Origin: Sulfurospirillum cavolei
GTDB lineage: Bacteria; Campylobacterota; Campylobacteria; Campylobacterales; Sulfurospirillaceae
Assembly: GCF_001548055.1 (NCBI RefSeq)
Contig: NZ_AP014724.1
Span: 124,001-188,000, forward strand
Length of the DNA stretch: 64,000 bases
Reading direction: 5' to 3'
Shown: positions 8,006 to 13,134 of the stretch, piece after piece
Layout: each line of letters opens with the position of its first letter
Numbering within the stretch: the stretch's first letter is position 1
Notes under the pieces: generated by a model
What the model was told of the DNA's origin: nothing
The model's database searches: none
What the model saw: the letters and a program-made list of their open reading frames with translations, nothing else
Made by a program: the position numbers and the translations under genes

Positions 8006-9232
8006 TTAATGCACGTCAAATGCCTGATCGATGTCCAAAAGTAAGTCTTCCATGTCCTCGATGCCCACCGAAAGACGAATCATTCCCTCGTTCAAATAAA
8101 ACCTCTTCTTTTGTTCGTCGGAGTATTCGGCGTAGATCGTATGGTAGGGGGCAATCGCTAAGGATTTATTGTCTTGGATGTTGGTTCCGCGACGAATCAG
8201 TTTAAGCGCGTTTAAAAAGGCATAGGTTTTCTCTTTGCTTGCTAGGCTAAACGTGACGATAGCACCGCCGCCGCTAAATTGTTTCGAAGAAGCGGCAAAC
8301 GAAGCGGAACTCTCAAGCAGAGGATAATCCACGCGGATTACTTCGTTTTTAGCGTGCAAATGTTTGGCAACGGCCAGTGCATTGTGACAGCTTCTTTGCA
8401 CTCTGAGGTCGAGCGTTTCCAGTCCCAAACAGAGCAGGTACGCACTTTGTGCAGTCAAAGAAGCGCCTAAATTGCGAAAGGTCTCTTTGCGAAGGCGCGC
8501 AAGAAAAGCATTGGAACCGAATTTTTTATAATAAGGTGCTAAAGTCGCATGGTTTTTCCATTCAAACGTGCCGTTATCGACGATCAATCCGCCTAAGACG
8601 TGACCGCCGCCGCTGAGGTATTTGGTTGCGGAGACGATTTCGATATCCACGCCGTGCTTTTTCGCATCGAAGATATTCCACGGCGTCATGGTCGTATCGA
8701 CGATGAAAGGGACGTTACGCTCTTTAAGGATGTTTTTGAGGGCTAGAAAATCGGGCACGATCAGTTGCGGATTGCTGATACTTTCGCAAAAGAGTAAACG
8801 CGTCTTGTCGTCGATCGCGGCTTGGACGGCGATAAGGTCGTTAACGTCCACATAACGTACTTCCACGCCAAAGTCGCTCAACAGGGTCTCGAAAAAAGAA
8901 AGGGTATTGCCGAAGAGATAGTTGGTCGTGATGATGTTGTCGCCGCTTTTCAAAAGCGCGAAAAAGGTATTGGCAATCGCCGCCATTCCCGTTGCCGTAG
9001 CGATAACCCCGAAAGCACCGCTGATCGCTTTGACTTTGAGTTCAAACTCTTCAATCGTTGGGTTTGAGGAGCGCGTATAGACGTGCCCCATTTTTTGCCC
9101 TTTAAAAACAGCTTCAAGGTCTTCAGATTTTTCAAACTCAAAGGCTGAACTTTGGTAGATCGGAAAACGCATTGCACCGTGTTGGTCCTTATGTGCAGGT
9201 TTGGCGTGCAATGCTTTGGTCGTAAATCCCAT
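8006..9232 (-). CDS. metY: MetY-type O-acetylhomoserine sulfhydrylase
   Basis: 408 residues of the Cys/Met-metabolism PLP enzyme family, with the PLP-lysine motif SATKYLSGGGH and upstream VDTTMTPW. Family and context point to O-acetylhomoserine sulfhydrylase. In Wolinella succinogenes the MetY partner of HcyS adds the carrier thiocarboxylate to O-acetylhomoserine, giving carrier-bound homocysteine. Here it is the last gene of the cluster holding hcyS, hcyF, hcyD and sir, so the same role is inferred. It has its own conserved leader (9261-9374). RBS AAGAAGGA precedes the ATG. Confidence 0.85.
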   Translation of the reverse strand: MGFTTKALHAKPAHKDQHGAMRFPIYQSSAFEFEKSEDLEAVFKGQKMGHVYTRSSNPTIEEFELKVKAISGAFGVIATATGMAAIANTFFALLKSGDNIITTNYLFGNTLSFFETLLSDFGVEVRYVDVNDLIAVQAAIDDKTRLLFCESISNPQLIVPDFLALKNILKERNVPFIVDTTMTPWNIFDAKKHGVDIEIVSATKYLSGGGHVLGGLIVDNGTFEWKNHATLAPYYKKFGSNAFLARLRKETFRNLGASLTAQSAYLLCLGLETLDLRVQRSCHNALAVAKHLHAKNEVIRVDYPLLESSASFAASSKQFSGGGAIVTFSLASKEKTYAFLNALKLIRRGTNIQDNKSLAIAPYHTIYAEYSDEQKKRFYLNEGMIRLSVGIEDMEDLLLDIDQAFDVH

Positions 9233-9260
9233 ACAATATCCTTCTTTAACTTTTGTAAAT

Positions 9261-9374
9261 CAGCTTCCGAAATAAATCTTTTCAGGGCACGGTTAAGACA
9301 CGACGGGAACCCCGAAACGCTCCGCTTATTCGTCCCATCGGCTTAAAGTGTTTCGTGCAGATTTTTTCTACGCG
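9261..9374 (-). promoter_or_regulatory. Structured sulfur-gene leader, copy 1 (metY)
   Basis: 114 nt that align without gaps to 12998-13111 upstream of sir. The central 47 nt (9297-9343) are identical, while the flanks have diverged. Read as RNA: outer pairs CAC/GTG and TTAAG/CTTAA, inner GATGGGA/TCCCGTC, and apical CGAA/TTCG. The outer stem is TTGAG/CTCAA in the other copy, a compensatory change. It ends about 28 nt before the metY ATG. It matches no riboswitch class I recognise; a regulatory RNA is inferred. Confidence 0.65.
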
Positions 9375-9382
9375 GTTTACGT

Positions 9383-10651
9383 TTACATGTAAATGATTTT
9401 GCCGCTATTTTCAGCGGGTACAATATTCTCTTTTGCCACACATTCACCGATGATTAAGACCGCCGGTGTGGCACATAACGCCGCCATTTTAGCCAAATTT
9501 CCCACAGTTCCTACTATCGTGATCTGATCAGGTAGGTCGATCTTTGAGACAAATGCCGCAGGAAGATAGGGGTCGATGCCTTCTTTGGCTATGGCATCTT
9601 CGATCTTTTTGGCAAAACTGTGTGCCATCAAAACAATGACCGTATGCAACGGCTGTTTTAAAATGCCCACCCAATCATCGTTAAACAGCGTTTCCCTCAG
9701 GTGTGCTGAGACAATGGTCACCCCTTTGGAAATGTCTCGAATGGTCGGCACAATGCCAGAAACGGTGCAGGAGCGAAATGCGGAGCTGACGCCGTTGATG
9801 ACCTCAAAAGCGATGCCATGCTGAGCCAACACCTGTTTTTCTTCGCCCAAGCGCCCAAACAGAAGTGCTTCGCCCCCTTTAAGGCGTCCGACGACGAGTC
9901 CTTGTTTGGCGTATTCGACCAAAAGCGCGTTGATTTCGTCTTGACTTTTGGAGTGAAAGCCTTTCTTTTTACTCACGTCGACCACTTTACATGTAAGGGG
10001 AATGAGAGAGCGAATCTCCTCAGAAACCAGCGCGTCCACCAAAGCAACATCGAGCAGTTCAAAGGCGTTTAAGGCGTCTAACGTAAGGTTGCCCACATAG
10101 CCTGTGCCACAGCTGATGAGAAAAACTTTTCCCACACCCGCTTCAGCCATGCCGCGCAGTTTTTCGAGGTCACGGTCTGGTTTTTGACGTTCATTTTTAA
10201 GACGCTCAATCAGAGATGTGAGATCGCGCGGTAAAATTTTCTCGATTTTGTCACGAATGACTTGCGCCAACGTGGGCGAACTGCCACCACTGCTGACAGC
10301 GACTTGAATGTCCCCACGACGCGTCAACGCGCTGAAGTAAAAATCACACAGTTCGGGCACATCGACGACATTGAGCCAAAAGCGCAGGCGAGGCTTCAAA
10401 GCCACGAGACAGTTGGTTACCGCTTCATTGCCCGTTGCGTCGATAATCACCTCAAAACCCTCAGCATCAGCATCTTCAAACGCTTTACATGTAAACGTTT
10501 TGGACGCAAAATAGTCGTCCAAAACCTCAGTTGCTACAATCTCATAGGCAAAATCAAGGCTATCGAGCACGCGCGCTTTCTGGGCGGCGACTTTGCCAGC
10601 ACCAATGAGAAGCGTTTTTTTGGGCGTTAGCGCGATGCCTAAGGTACTCAT
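9383..10651 (-). CDS. cysG: CysG-like siroheme synthase
   Basis: 422 residues in two parts. The N-terminal precorrin-2 dehydrogenase/ferrochelatase part has the nucleotide site TLLIGAGKVAAQKARVL and VSSGGSSPTLAQVIRDKIE. The C-terminal uroporphyrinogen-III methyltransferase part starts near residue 172 and carries GRLKGGEALLFGRLGEE. The usual VGAGPGD entry motif is altered to ISCGTGYVG, so methyltransferase activity deserves a check. It would supply siroheme to the sulfite reductase encoded upstream; its ATG overlaps the sir stop by four bases. The stop codon is part of a TTACATGTAA palindrome. Confidence 0.85.
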   Translation of the reverse strand: MSTLGIALTPKKTLLIGAGKVAAQKARVLDSLDFAYEIVATEVLDDYFASKTFTCKAFEDADAEGFEVIIDATGNEAVTNCLVALKPRLRFWLNVVDVPELCDFYFSALTRRGDIQVAVSSGGSSPTLAQVIRDKIEKILPRDLTSLIERLKNERQKPDRDLEKLRGMAEAGVGKVFLISCGTGYVGNLTLDALNAFELLDVALVDALVSEEIRSLIPLTCKVVDVSKKKGFHSKSQDEINALLVEYAKQGLVVGRLKGGEALLFGRLGEEKQVLAQHGIAFEVINGVSSAFRSCTVSGIVPTIRDISKGVTIVSAHLRETLFNDDWVGILKQPLHTVIVLMAHSFAKKIEDAIAKEGIDPYLPAAFVSKIDLPDQITIVGTVGNLAKMAALCATPAVLIIGECVAKENIVPAENSGKIIYM

Positions 10652-12930
10652 TTTTTCACGATCCTAACGCGCCAGCCGTTACCCTCTTTGGTGGTGGCTT
10701 CGACTTTGTGACCTTCTCCTGCGACGGATTTGGGTACGTTGTCGATCGGTGCGCCATCATCAAGTAAAATCTCCAAAACTTCGCCGCTTCCGATTTTGGA
10801 GAGCTCCATCTTGGTTTTCACAAAGTTCATCGGACACGCCACACCGCTGAGGTCTTTAAAATGCACCGCTTTTTCTTCTTTGACTTCGGCAGCGGCCGCA
10901 AGCTCTTTTTCTTTCGCAAATTTAAGTGTGTGATCCATGCTCGCATAAAGCTTCATCACCTCTTCGGCAAGCTCAATCGATTTCTCATCGGCATCACCCT
11001 CTAGCATCGTGCCAAAGTAGGCATTCAACAGTGTGGTGTCGATAAAATGCGTTTTAAACGCTTTCAAAACGCCCGCTTTATCGCGCGCATCTTCCCCACG
11101 TGTCACAAGAAGCATACGAGCGGAGAGTAAACGAATGAGTTCAAAATCTTTCTCTTCTTTCTCAAGCGCCTCTTTCAGGGCTTTTTTATCGGCTTCGATG
11201 AGGTCGTACATACCCGCACTACATTCGCCCACGCCTCTTCCTTTTAAGGAGAAGAGCTCGACCGCGTTGTAGTCAAAGTACGGATTTTTGTCGTCATTAA
11301 ATGAAGGAATTTCCACGTATTTTTTAGAAATCTCTTCGACGATTTTCAGTCCGCCATCGTCAATCCAGTCAGCAAAACTCTCGTATTTTTTTACATGCTT
11401 AAGCCATGTATCTAACACTTCTTCGACAAAAGCAGGGAGGTGGAATGCCGCAACATCGCCCGCTTTTTGCGCAAACACTGTGCCTTCCCCAGATGTCCTT
11501 GTGCCTGCTACGACGTTGTAGGCTGGGTAGGAGTAGCCCTCGTTGCGTTGCACTTTGCCAAAAAAGCCAAGATCGCCGATAAGGTGTTTACCACAACTGT
11601 TTGGACAACCCGATAAATGGATTTTAAAACCTTGAAGTGCGTCATAATCGCGTTCGTCTAAGAGTTTGCTCAAACGCTTCTGAATCGCATCAACGGCACC
11701 TCTGGGACGAGCAATGCCAAGCTGACATGTCGCCGCTCCCGTACACGCAACCATATCGCCAAAGAGCGTTGGGCGCACGACGTCTTTAGAGAAGTGTTGC
11801 AAGATGTCATGCAAGCTTGCCATTTGTGGAGCTGTTAGGTTACGAATGTAGAGGTTTTGATCGCCTGTAAAACGAAGCACATCTTCACCAAAAGGAAGCA
11901 GTGCGTTGGCAAGGGCGCGTGCATGGTTAAAATGAATATCGCCCAAATGCACTGGCACTTTGCATCCGTAAAGTCCTGCTTGTTTTTGCGCGTAAACGTA
12001 GCGATTCCACCATTTTGAGATAGATGCAGGCACGTTAAAAGGCTCACTTTCTGTGTTGCCAATGGTTCGCTCAATCTCTACAATCGGCAATTCCCAGTCA
12101 CCTTTGGCTTTAATTGCTTCGATCTCAACATTGACGAGCCTTCTAAACTCGTCCATGCCCAACTCTTCGATCAAGAAGCGAAGGCGTGCGGCGTGTTTGT
12201 TTTTGCGGTTACCGTTTTGGTCAAATACCTGTTTGATCGCTTGAGCGTACAAAAAGACTTCAGTGTCGGGTACAAAATCAAGAAATTTGCTTCCCACGCG
12301 AGACTTCGCACCCATGCCGCCTGCGACAAAGAGTTTAAAGCCCTTCACACCGTTTTCGATCTTGGCAATAAAACCGACATCATGGATGGTTGCATAACCA
12401 CGATCGGCCTCGGAGCCGCTAAAGGTGATTTTGAATTTGCGTGGCAATGCAAATGAATCTTTTTGCTCCAACATTTTGGTCGTCAAAGCAAGCGCGTAAG
12501 GTGAAACGTCAAAGACTTCATCGGGCGCAGTGCCTGCTAGAGGGTCTGCTGTGATATTGCGCACGGTGTTACCGCCGCCGCCACGACCGCTCAGACCAAT
12601 GCTGTGCAAGGTTGTGATGATGTCGATGATGTCTTCGATCTTAACGTAGTGAAGCTGTGCGCCACCGCGTGTAGTGATGTGAATCGCCTCATGTGCGTAT
12701 TTTTCCGCCAGATCAGCCAAAGTCAAAAGCTGTGTGGGGGTCAAAATACCGCCAGCGAGTTTGATGCGCACCATAAAAGTGTTGGCTTCGCGTTGCTCGT
12801 ACACGCCAAAAGGCACGCGCATCGTTTTAAAGGTCAGCTCATCCAGTGTGCCTGCTAAAAAATCGGCATGGTTTTTTTTGAAAACTTCGAGGTCATCGTA
12901 GACAAGTTGGGGGATAATATAATGGCTCAT
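10648..12930 (-). CDS. sir: Sulfite reductase with C-terminal TusA-like domain
   Basis: 760 residues from the ATG at 12930, chosen because AAGGAG lies eight bases upstream; a longer frame exists but lacks support. The first 540 or so residues form a siroheme/[4Fe-4S] sulfite-nitrite reductase with ligands CTGAATC and CPNSC. A helical stretch follows, and about the last 70 residues form a TusA/SirA-like fold with the sulfur-carrier cysteine in SGVACPMNFVKTK. It should reduce sulfite to sulfide for the HcyS pathway; the TusA part may hand the sulfur on. An upstream structured leader suggests separate control. Confidence 0.88.
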   Translation of the reverse strand: MSHYIIPQLVYDDLEVFKKNHADFLAGTLDELTFKTMRVPFGVYEQREANTFMVRIKLAGGILTPTQLLTLADLAEKYAHEAIHITTRGGAQLHYVKIEDIIDIITTLHSIGLSGRGGGGNTVRNITADPLAGTAPDEVFDVSPYALALTTKMLEQKDSFALPRKFKITFSGSEADRGYATIHDVGFIAKIENGVKGFKLFVAGGMGAKSRVGSKFLDFVPDTEVFLYAQAIKQVFDQNGNRKNKHAARLRFLIEELGMDEFRRLVNVEIEAIKAKGDWELPIVEIERTIGNTESEPFNVPASISKWWNRYVYAQKQAGLYGCKVPVHLGDIHFNHARALANALLPFGEDVLRFTGDQNLYIRNLTAPQMASLHDILQHFSKDVVRPTLFGDMVACTGAATCQLGIARPRGAVDAIQKRLSKLLDERDYDALQGFKIHLSGCPNSCGKHLIGDLGFFGKVQRNEGYSYPAYNVVAGTRTSGEGTVFAQKAGDVAAFHLPAFVEEVLDTWLKHVKKYESFADWIDDGGLKIVEEISKKYVEIPSFNDDKNPYFDYNAVELFSLKGRGVGECSAGMYDLIEADKKALKEALEKEEKDFELIRLLSARMLLVTRGEDARDKAGVLKAFKTHFIDTTLLNAYFGTMLEGDADEKSIELAEEVMKLYASMDHTLKFAKEKELAAAAEVKEEKAVHFKDLSGVACPMNFVKTKMELSKIGSGEVLEILLDDGAPIDNVPKSVAGEGHKVEATTKEGNGWRVRIVKK

Positions 12931-12997
12931 AATCGTAACTCCTTTGATGTTACATGTAAACGTTTTGATGAAGAAGATGCGTAGAAAAAATATAAAA

Positions 12998-13111
12998 CAG
13001 CTTTCAAAACAAACCTTCATGCAACACGGTTGAGACACGACGGGAACCCCGAAACGCTCCGCTTATTCGTCCCATCGGCTCAAAGTGTTTTATTCAGGTT
13101 GTTTCTTCGCG
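12998..13111 (-). promoter_or_regulatory. Structured sulfur-gene leader, copy 2 (sir)
   Basis: Partner of 9261-9374 with the same length, same strand and an identical 47-nt core (13034-13080). The outer stem here is ACAC(T)TTGAG paired with CTCAA(CC)GTGT. The leader starts 68 nt before the sir ATG; between them lie a TTACATGTAA palindrome (12950-12959) and the RBS. Same place, same sense and a covarying stem support a cis-acting RNA for sulfur or methionine status. The ligand is unknown. Confidence 0.65.
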
Positions 13112-13134
13112 TTTTATAGACGCGTTTTCATTAA

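Follow-up and report, generated by a model that had tools for sequence, protein, structure and literature searches.

Integron attC sites are hairpins of low sequence and high structural conservation that carry extrahelical bases and are active as folded single strands. The RNase III sites of phage T7 are intercistronic hairpins with asymmetric internal loops. In enterobacteria, ERIC (IRU) is a 127-bp palindromic intergenic repeat with 7-bp terminal inverted repeats, a target duplication and a terminal TA, which is transcribed as a stem-loop and has regulatory side effects on neighbouring mRNA (PMC2229807). NEMIS are also among the known small intergenic repeats (PMC2229807). The SAS of cluster K mycobacteriophages, 13 bp long and furnished with 17-bp arms in their extended form (ESAS), lie just upstream of start codons (PMC3203893).

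Here we describe an element found in two copies within a 64-kb stretch of Sulfurospirillum cavolei DNA, which was analysed as a whole and is called the window below. We lean, with slightly better than even confidence, towards reading it as a recombinogenic hairpin repeat that is dispersed between the genes of Campylobacterota and of some of their phages and whose folded form is kept by selection. Literature searches on Campylobacter, Helicobacter and Sulfurospirillum yielded no description of such a repeat.

The two copies in the window

Both copies lie on the minus strand. They align over 114 nt without gaps and with exactly 19 mismatches, in agreement with the preliminary description, which had counted about 19; the identical run, given there as 47 nt, measures 48 nt, and the reported change of the outer stem from TTAAG/CTTAA to TTGAG/CTCAA is present in the pair. 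The copies were also correctly said to be in sense orientation, the neighbouring metY-like, cysG and sir genes all being on the minus strand. The features of the two sites are:

8006–9232, minus strand: metY-like PLP enzyme gene
9255–9260: palindrome arm GTAAAT flanking copy 2, partner 9375–9380
9261–9374, minus strand: element copy 2, same unit as copy 1, between cysG and the metY-like gene
9276–9364, minus strand: modelled core of copy 2, 89 nt, covariance-model match of 102.2 bits
9375–9380: palindrome arm GTTTAC flanking copy 2, partner 9255–9260
9383–10651, minus strand: cysG
10648–12930, minus strand: sir
12979–12990: GCGTAGAAAAAA remnant beside copy 1, from sequence comparison
12991–12997: palindrome arm TATAAAA flanking copy 1, partner 13112–13118, read directly
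12998–13111, minus strand (the core strand): element copy 1, between the JAB/MoeB genes and sir
13013–13101, minus strand: modelled core of copy 1, 89 nt, covariance-model match of 104.8 bits
13112–13118: palindrome arm TTTTATA flanking copy 1, partner 12991–12997

The repeat unit, the same in both copies, is 113–115 nt long and reads CGCG(A/T)AGAAA...(G)AAGCTG. A 23-nt core probe occurred twice in the whole window, against zero occurrences expected. The modelled core of copy 1 contains stems P1–P5 with conserved asymmetric internal loops, and the TATAAAA/TTTTATA arms lengthen its stem, a layout also seen in orthologues. When folded individually, the strand at 12998–13111 was better than its shuffles (z −3.3), and that at 9261–9374 was no better (z −0.7). 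Judged by its sequence, the remnant GCGTAGAAAAAA resembles the terminus of an earlier copy with the opposite direction, in what would be a nested replacement.

The metY-like product is a PLP enzyme of Cys/Met metabolism, whose best NCBIfam matches (cystathionine gamma-synthase family and O-acetylhomoserine sulfhydrylase) are both below cut-off. The sir product resembles sulfite/nitrite reductases and has a TusA domain, and proteins of the JAB-domain and MoeB/ThiF types are encoded by further neighbours on the minus strand. The same genome has at least three additional copies, at C1:357.5, 840.7 (weak) and 885.5 kb. Known RNA families, including the SAM, SAH, cobalamin and other riboswitches, gave no match at gathering score: Rfam 15 identified only a tRNA in the whole window, permissive scans of three stretches returned nothing credible, and ten further loci returned nothing. 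The preliminary description was right in that the element belongs to no known Rfam class.

A different palindrome, TTACATGTAA, is present at 21 sites in the window (for example 9383, 9987, 10485, 12950 and 14769), compared with 0.14 expected from base composition. It occurs 128 times in 245 kb from other genomes of the genus, within and between genes, and not at all in Nitratiruptor-type loci. It looks like a highly iterated palindrome.

Distribution, fold and covariation

BLAST located a third copy in the same genome and gave matches in 20 of 60 relatives, essentially confined to the genus. A first covariance model, built from 34 genus copies, recovered five copies in this genome (the weak one at 840.7 kb included) and additional copies in other families of Campylobacterales. 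A pattern scan of GTDB genomes matched Sulfurospirillum, Nitratiruptor, Sulfuricurvum and other Campylobacterales; in a sample of the phylum, searched with a better model and stricter filters, 39 of 397 genomes were positive. The covariance-model search in Campylobacterota revealed an order-wide family whose neighbouring genes share no pathway. A sensitive scan, applied to 24 selected genomes, gave 1 to 16 copies per genome, and the structure is maintained in single-copy genomes too.

The element is an imperfect palindrome of 90–115 nt, longer with P1, in which five stems are separated by conserved asymmetric internal loops (P2; UU/ACC; P3; C/UG; P4; bulge; P5) and the sequence of the outer stem is copy-specific. 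In most chromosomal copies the bulge between P4 and P5 is GGGY. The conserved positions are unpaired or flanking, namely UU opposite ACC, C opposite UG, and GAA...GAG beside P2.

Covariation over 100 copies reached 0.561, compared with 0.180 ± 0.007 after shuffling and at most 0.124 with slid partners, and 91% of stem cells were paired; these absolute values are biased towards the structure, as the model used to fit the alignment already includes it. Both sides had changed in 22 of 28 pairs among 75 copies, and compensated stem changes were already visible in a plain MAFFT alignment of the genus copies. P4 is nearly invariant in Sulfurospirillum. In f9/f11 and phage copies both of its arms are replaced together while the loop bases stay unchanged, the replacements AAGTGAA/TTCACTT, TTTAGAA/TTCTAAA and GAGCGG/CCGCTC being evident by eye. 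As a rough measure, in which the assignment of the P1 right arm is unreliable, mutual information within stems was 1.21 of 1.32 bits for the P3 arms and 1.16 of 1.31 bits for the P4 arms, and lower, at 0.38, between the neighbouring stems P3 and P4. The outer arms of P1 are long, nearly perfect and different from copy to copy; because replication errors that correct palindromes could also create such arms, the covariation of P1 is not pure evidence of selection.

A DnaA-box-like motif, TTATCCACA, in some copies was discarded as a by-product of one P3 type. At L142, L145, L146, L114 and L249–L256, a sub-type has the loops GATTCTGCAAC...GTGAAGCCTNARTGA in place of ACTTTGNNCC...GTGNNCAACCGT, and may represent a sister class.

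Gene context, direction and turnover

Copies occupy short gaps, of tens of bases between co-directional genes, and their neighbours are unrelated: MltA/Ham1, Rpe/ArgJ, SDR/spore photoproduct lyase-like, IMPDH/MetX, PriA/GcpE, GcpE/DnaB, MnmG, NFACT/CdsA, a MetE gene, MnmE, MetH, CobW, ArsB and phage genes. In set A2, which consists mostly of Sulfurospirillum and Nitratiruptor copies, the copies between co-directional neighbours divide into 25 sense, with 90% of stem cells paired, and 34 antisense, with 91%. The sir site is sense in eight species and antisense in seven, and direction also flips between species at the metY, metX, mnmG, gcpE/dnaB and metE sites. The inversions at sir fall within precise flanking inverted repeats, GAAGAAGG/CCTTCTTC in one clade and GTAAAGC/GCTTTAC in another. 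Mean pairwise identity at this site is 0.845 for the element, compared with 0.54 and 0.59 for its flanks.

In phages and prophages, all copies between co-directional genes are antisense (33:0, tandem arrays counted once), and the chromosomal copies of f9, f11 and f17 show a 10:2 antisense ratio; direction is therefore not always indifferent. The stem mismatches on the core strand differ likewise, G·U exceeding A·C by 58:25 in set A2 and A·C exceeding G·U by 47:29 in phage copies. In genome G374, 13 of 16 copies belong to arrays of near-identical 111–114-nt units that separate structural genes in a Mu-like prophage, and the remaining ones lie within about 10 kb of it. All nine copies of G484 are inside 34 kb of prophage with a P22-type portal, a capsid and a DnaG primase. 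The arrays of the Mu-like prophage in a complete f11 genome are located at:

L239:6538–6852, tandem array of 111–114-nt units
L239:10855–11282, tandem array of 111–114-nt units
L239:13651–14070, tandem array of 111–114-nt units
L239:14568–14762, tandem array of 111–114-nt units

IMG/VR added 24 copies in five phage contigs, one of which resembles the Campylobacter CJIE4/PC10 phages. Phage copies draw on a few stem types and join them in many ways, 32 copies showing 17 combinations. No copy was present in eight named prophages of Helicobacter or in five named phages of Campylobacter, so phages of these groups do not generally carry the element.

Individual sites gain, lose and exchange copies. 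The metY site is empty of the element in G009 and G003, and in five other genomes it holds a second type of repeat inside apparent remnants of the first. At sir, the element is missing from G022, the upstream gene abuts sir without a gap in G010 and G007, and G014 has the type-2 repeat instead. In G011 the sir copy resembles the metY type and the metY copy the sir type, an apparent swap. From their sequences, several sir copies look nested in the ends of an older, oppositely directed copy. As in MITEs, copies are dispersed at unrelated intergenic sites and relatives have empty sites. Comparisons of empty and filled metY and sir sites showed no target-site duplication, and terminal inverted repeats are absent, the unit ends CGCGTAG and GAAGCTG not being inverted repeats.

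The type-2 repeat itself is about 85 nt long (AAAAAAGCACCAACGGTGCGCGGGCTCGCTGCCGAAGCG...), is sometimes tandem and has 1–37 copies in each of 24 genus genomes; examples are at L053:11146–11302, L038, L046, L056 and L057.

No mobilising enzyme was found. RAYT/Y1 mobilisation is ruled out solely for the five Nitratiruptor-type genomes tested (G233, G241, G224, G272 and G257, with 3–6 copies each and some assemblies incomplete), which have no Y1 transposase. Four transposase genes of Sulfurospirillum type were inspected and had no element copy alongside. Within the genus, 23 of 24 genomes have Y1 transposases, unlinked to the element; a single Y1-type transposase gene has the short inverted ends AAAGTTTAGCCCTGACCCC (L220, G000:C1:2417474–2417812).

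Interpretation and comparison with known systems

Both window copies are sense and precede sulfur genes, which had suggested a metabolite riboswitch for sir and metY, and metX, metE and metH likewise adjoin copies. However, direction flips at sir, metY, metX and metE, the many other neighbours (ham1, rpe, priA, gcpE/dnaB, mnmG, NFACT/cdsA and phage genes) have no common pathway, and sir and metY genes without the element exist. Copies thus disregard both the sense and the function of the genes they adjoin, the pattern that the preliminary description itself had named as refuting its reading. On the grounds of orientation, context and empty sites we reject a sulfur riboswitch, which appears very improbable. 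The preliminary description had also argued for a selected RNA: the conserved, covarying structure is borne out, but the cis-regulatory role for sulfur genes is not. If the element were a multi-copy gene for a trans-acting small RNA with its own promoter, the direction of its neighbours would be irrelevant, and the G·U excess on the core strand of the chromosomal set and the fold kept in single-copy genomes would be expected. This too seems improbable, since the 5′ flanks, compared by eye, have no common promoter-like sequence upstream, the tandem arrays and shuffled stems of phages do not fit a gene, and the strand bias is reversed in phages.

A function in the transcript carries more weight. 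The complement of the core strand, which phage mRNAs would carry, would be the working RNA, a hairpin acting between cistrons either by being cut or by stabilising the mRNA, as in NEMIS/RNase III or ERIC/RNase E. The antisense ratios of phage copies (33:0) and of f9, f11 and f17 chromosomal copies (10:2) agree with this, as do the position of copies in gaps of tens of bases, flanked by co-directional genes, and the A·C excess on the core strand of phage copies, expected if the other strand folds. The opposite mismatch bias of set A2 and its 25 sense to 34 antisense copies, with flips at orthologous sites, argue against it, and a hairpin needing only to be cut would not require such conserved internal loops. 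Because the antisense bias in phages is total, we keep this explanation, while considering it rather unlikely.

No single RNA strand is favoured throughout, and for this reason we prefer a function at the DNA level, or one that tolerates either strand. Under the favoured reading of a dispersed hairpin repeat, the element would act as a folded DNA strand (hairpin or cruciform); its units would be inverted, exchanged and copied by an enzyme that recognises hairpins, or by hairpin-primed template switching and gene conversion; and the fold would be maintained through selection or repeated renewal. Effects on adjacent genes through a stem-loop in the transcript would be secondary. Counting against this reading are the failure to find a mobilising enzyme or a target-site duplication, the missing Y1 transposases in the five Nitratiruptor-type genomes tested, the antisense bias of phage and of f9, f11 and f17 copies, and the retention of several sites in many species, for which host benefit is as good an explanation as mobility. 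As a bolder reading, less likely than not, we propose a new structured nucleic-acid class, order-wide and shared with phages, whose conserved internal loops may be the recognition site of a putative hairpin-specific recombinase or nuclease and whose units would flip direction, exchange nested stems in modular fashion and multiply in tandem within prophages.

A tempting but false riboswitch thus gives way to an order-wide hairpin family that had no earlier name. The family passes covariation tests very strongly even though it is not an RNA of fixed orientation. This is a warning for the discovery of non-coding RNAs, since what looks like RNA covariation can stem from, or occur alongside, inversion, template switching and hairpin exchange. 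Culturable Sulfurospirillum and the prophages of related genera offer sites for direct tests of hairpin inversion and exchange.

By likeness, the element may work in the manner of ERIC, REP or NEMIS, and we do not place it as a member of any of them. Like ERIC, it is an intergenic repeat of about 110–130 bp with one long imperfect stem; it differs from ERIC in that the terminal repeats, target duplication and terminal TA are not seen, double changes preserve its fold throughout an order even as the sequence turns over, and it has only few copies, with concentrations in some prophages. GTAG-tagged REPs, which are associated with RAYT transposases, are similarly palindromic, intergenic and folded as single strands (PMC3733652), and many Sulfurospirillum copies begin with CGCGTAG, but the element is about three times longer and has no consistent tag across families. 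It shares with attC a hairpin of low sequence and high structural conservation with extrahelical bases, which would likewise act as a folded single strand; RYYYAAC/GTTRRRY core boxes and a cassette layout were not seen when the aligned copies were inspected by eye. Compared by structure, T7 RNase III sites and NEMIS are also intercistronic hairpins with asymmetric internal loops; in contrast to these, the element flips at orthologous sites. Finally, SAS/ESAS resemble the element in having inverted arms, in lying between phage genes and in pointing almost always the same way (PMC3203893), whereas the element described here is about 90–115 nt long and resides in host chromosomes as well.
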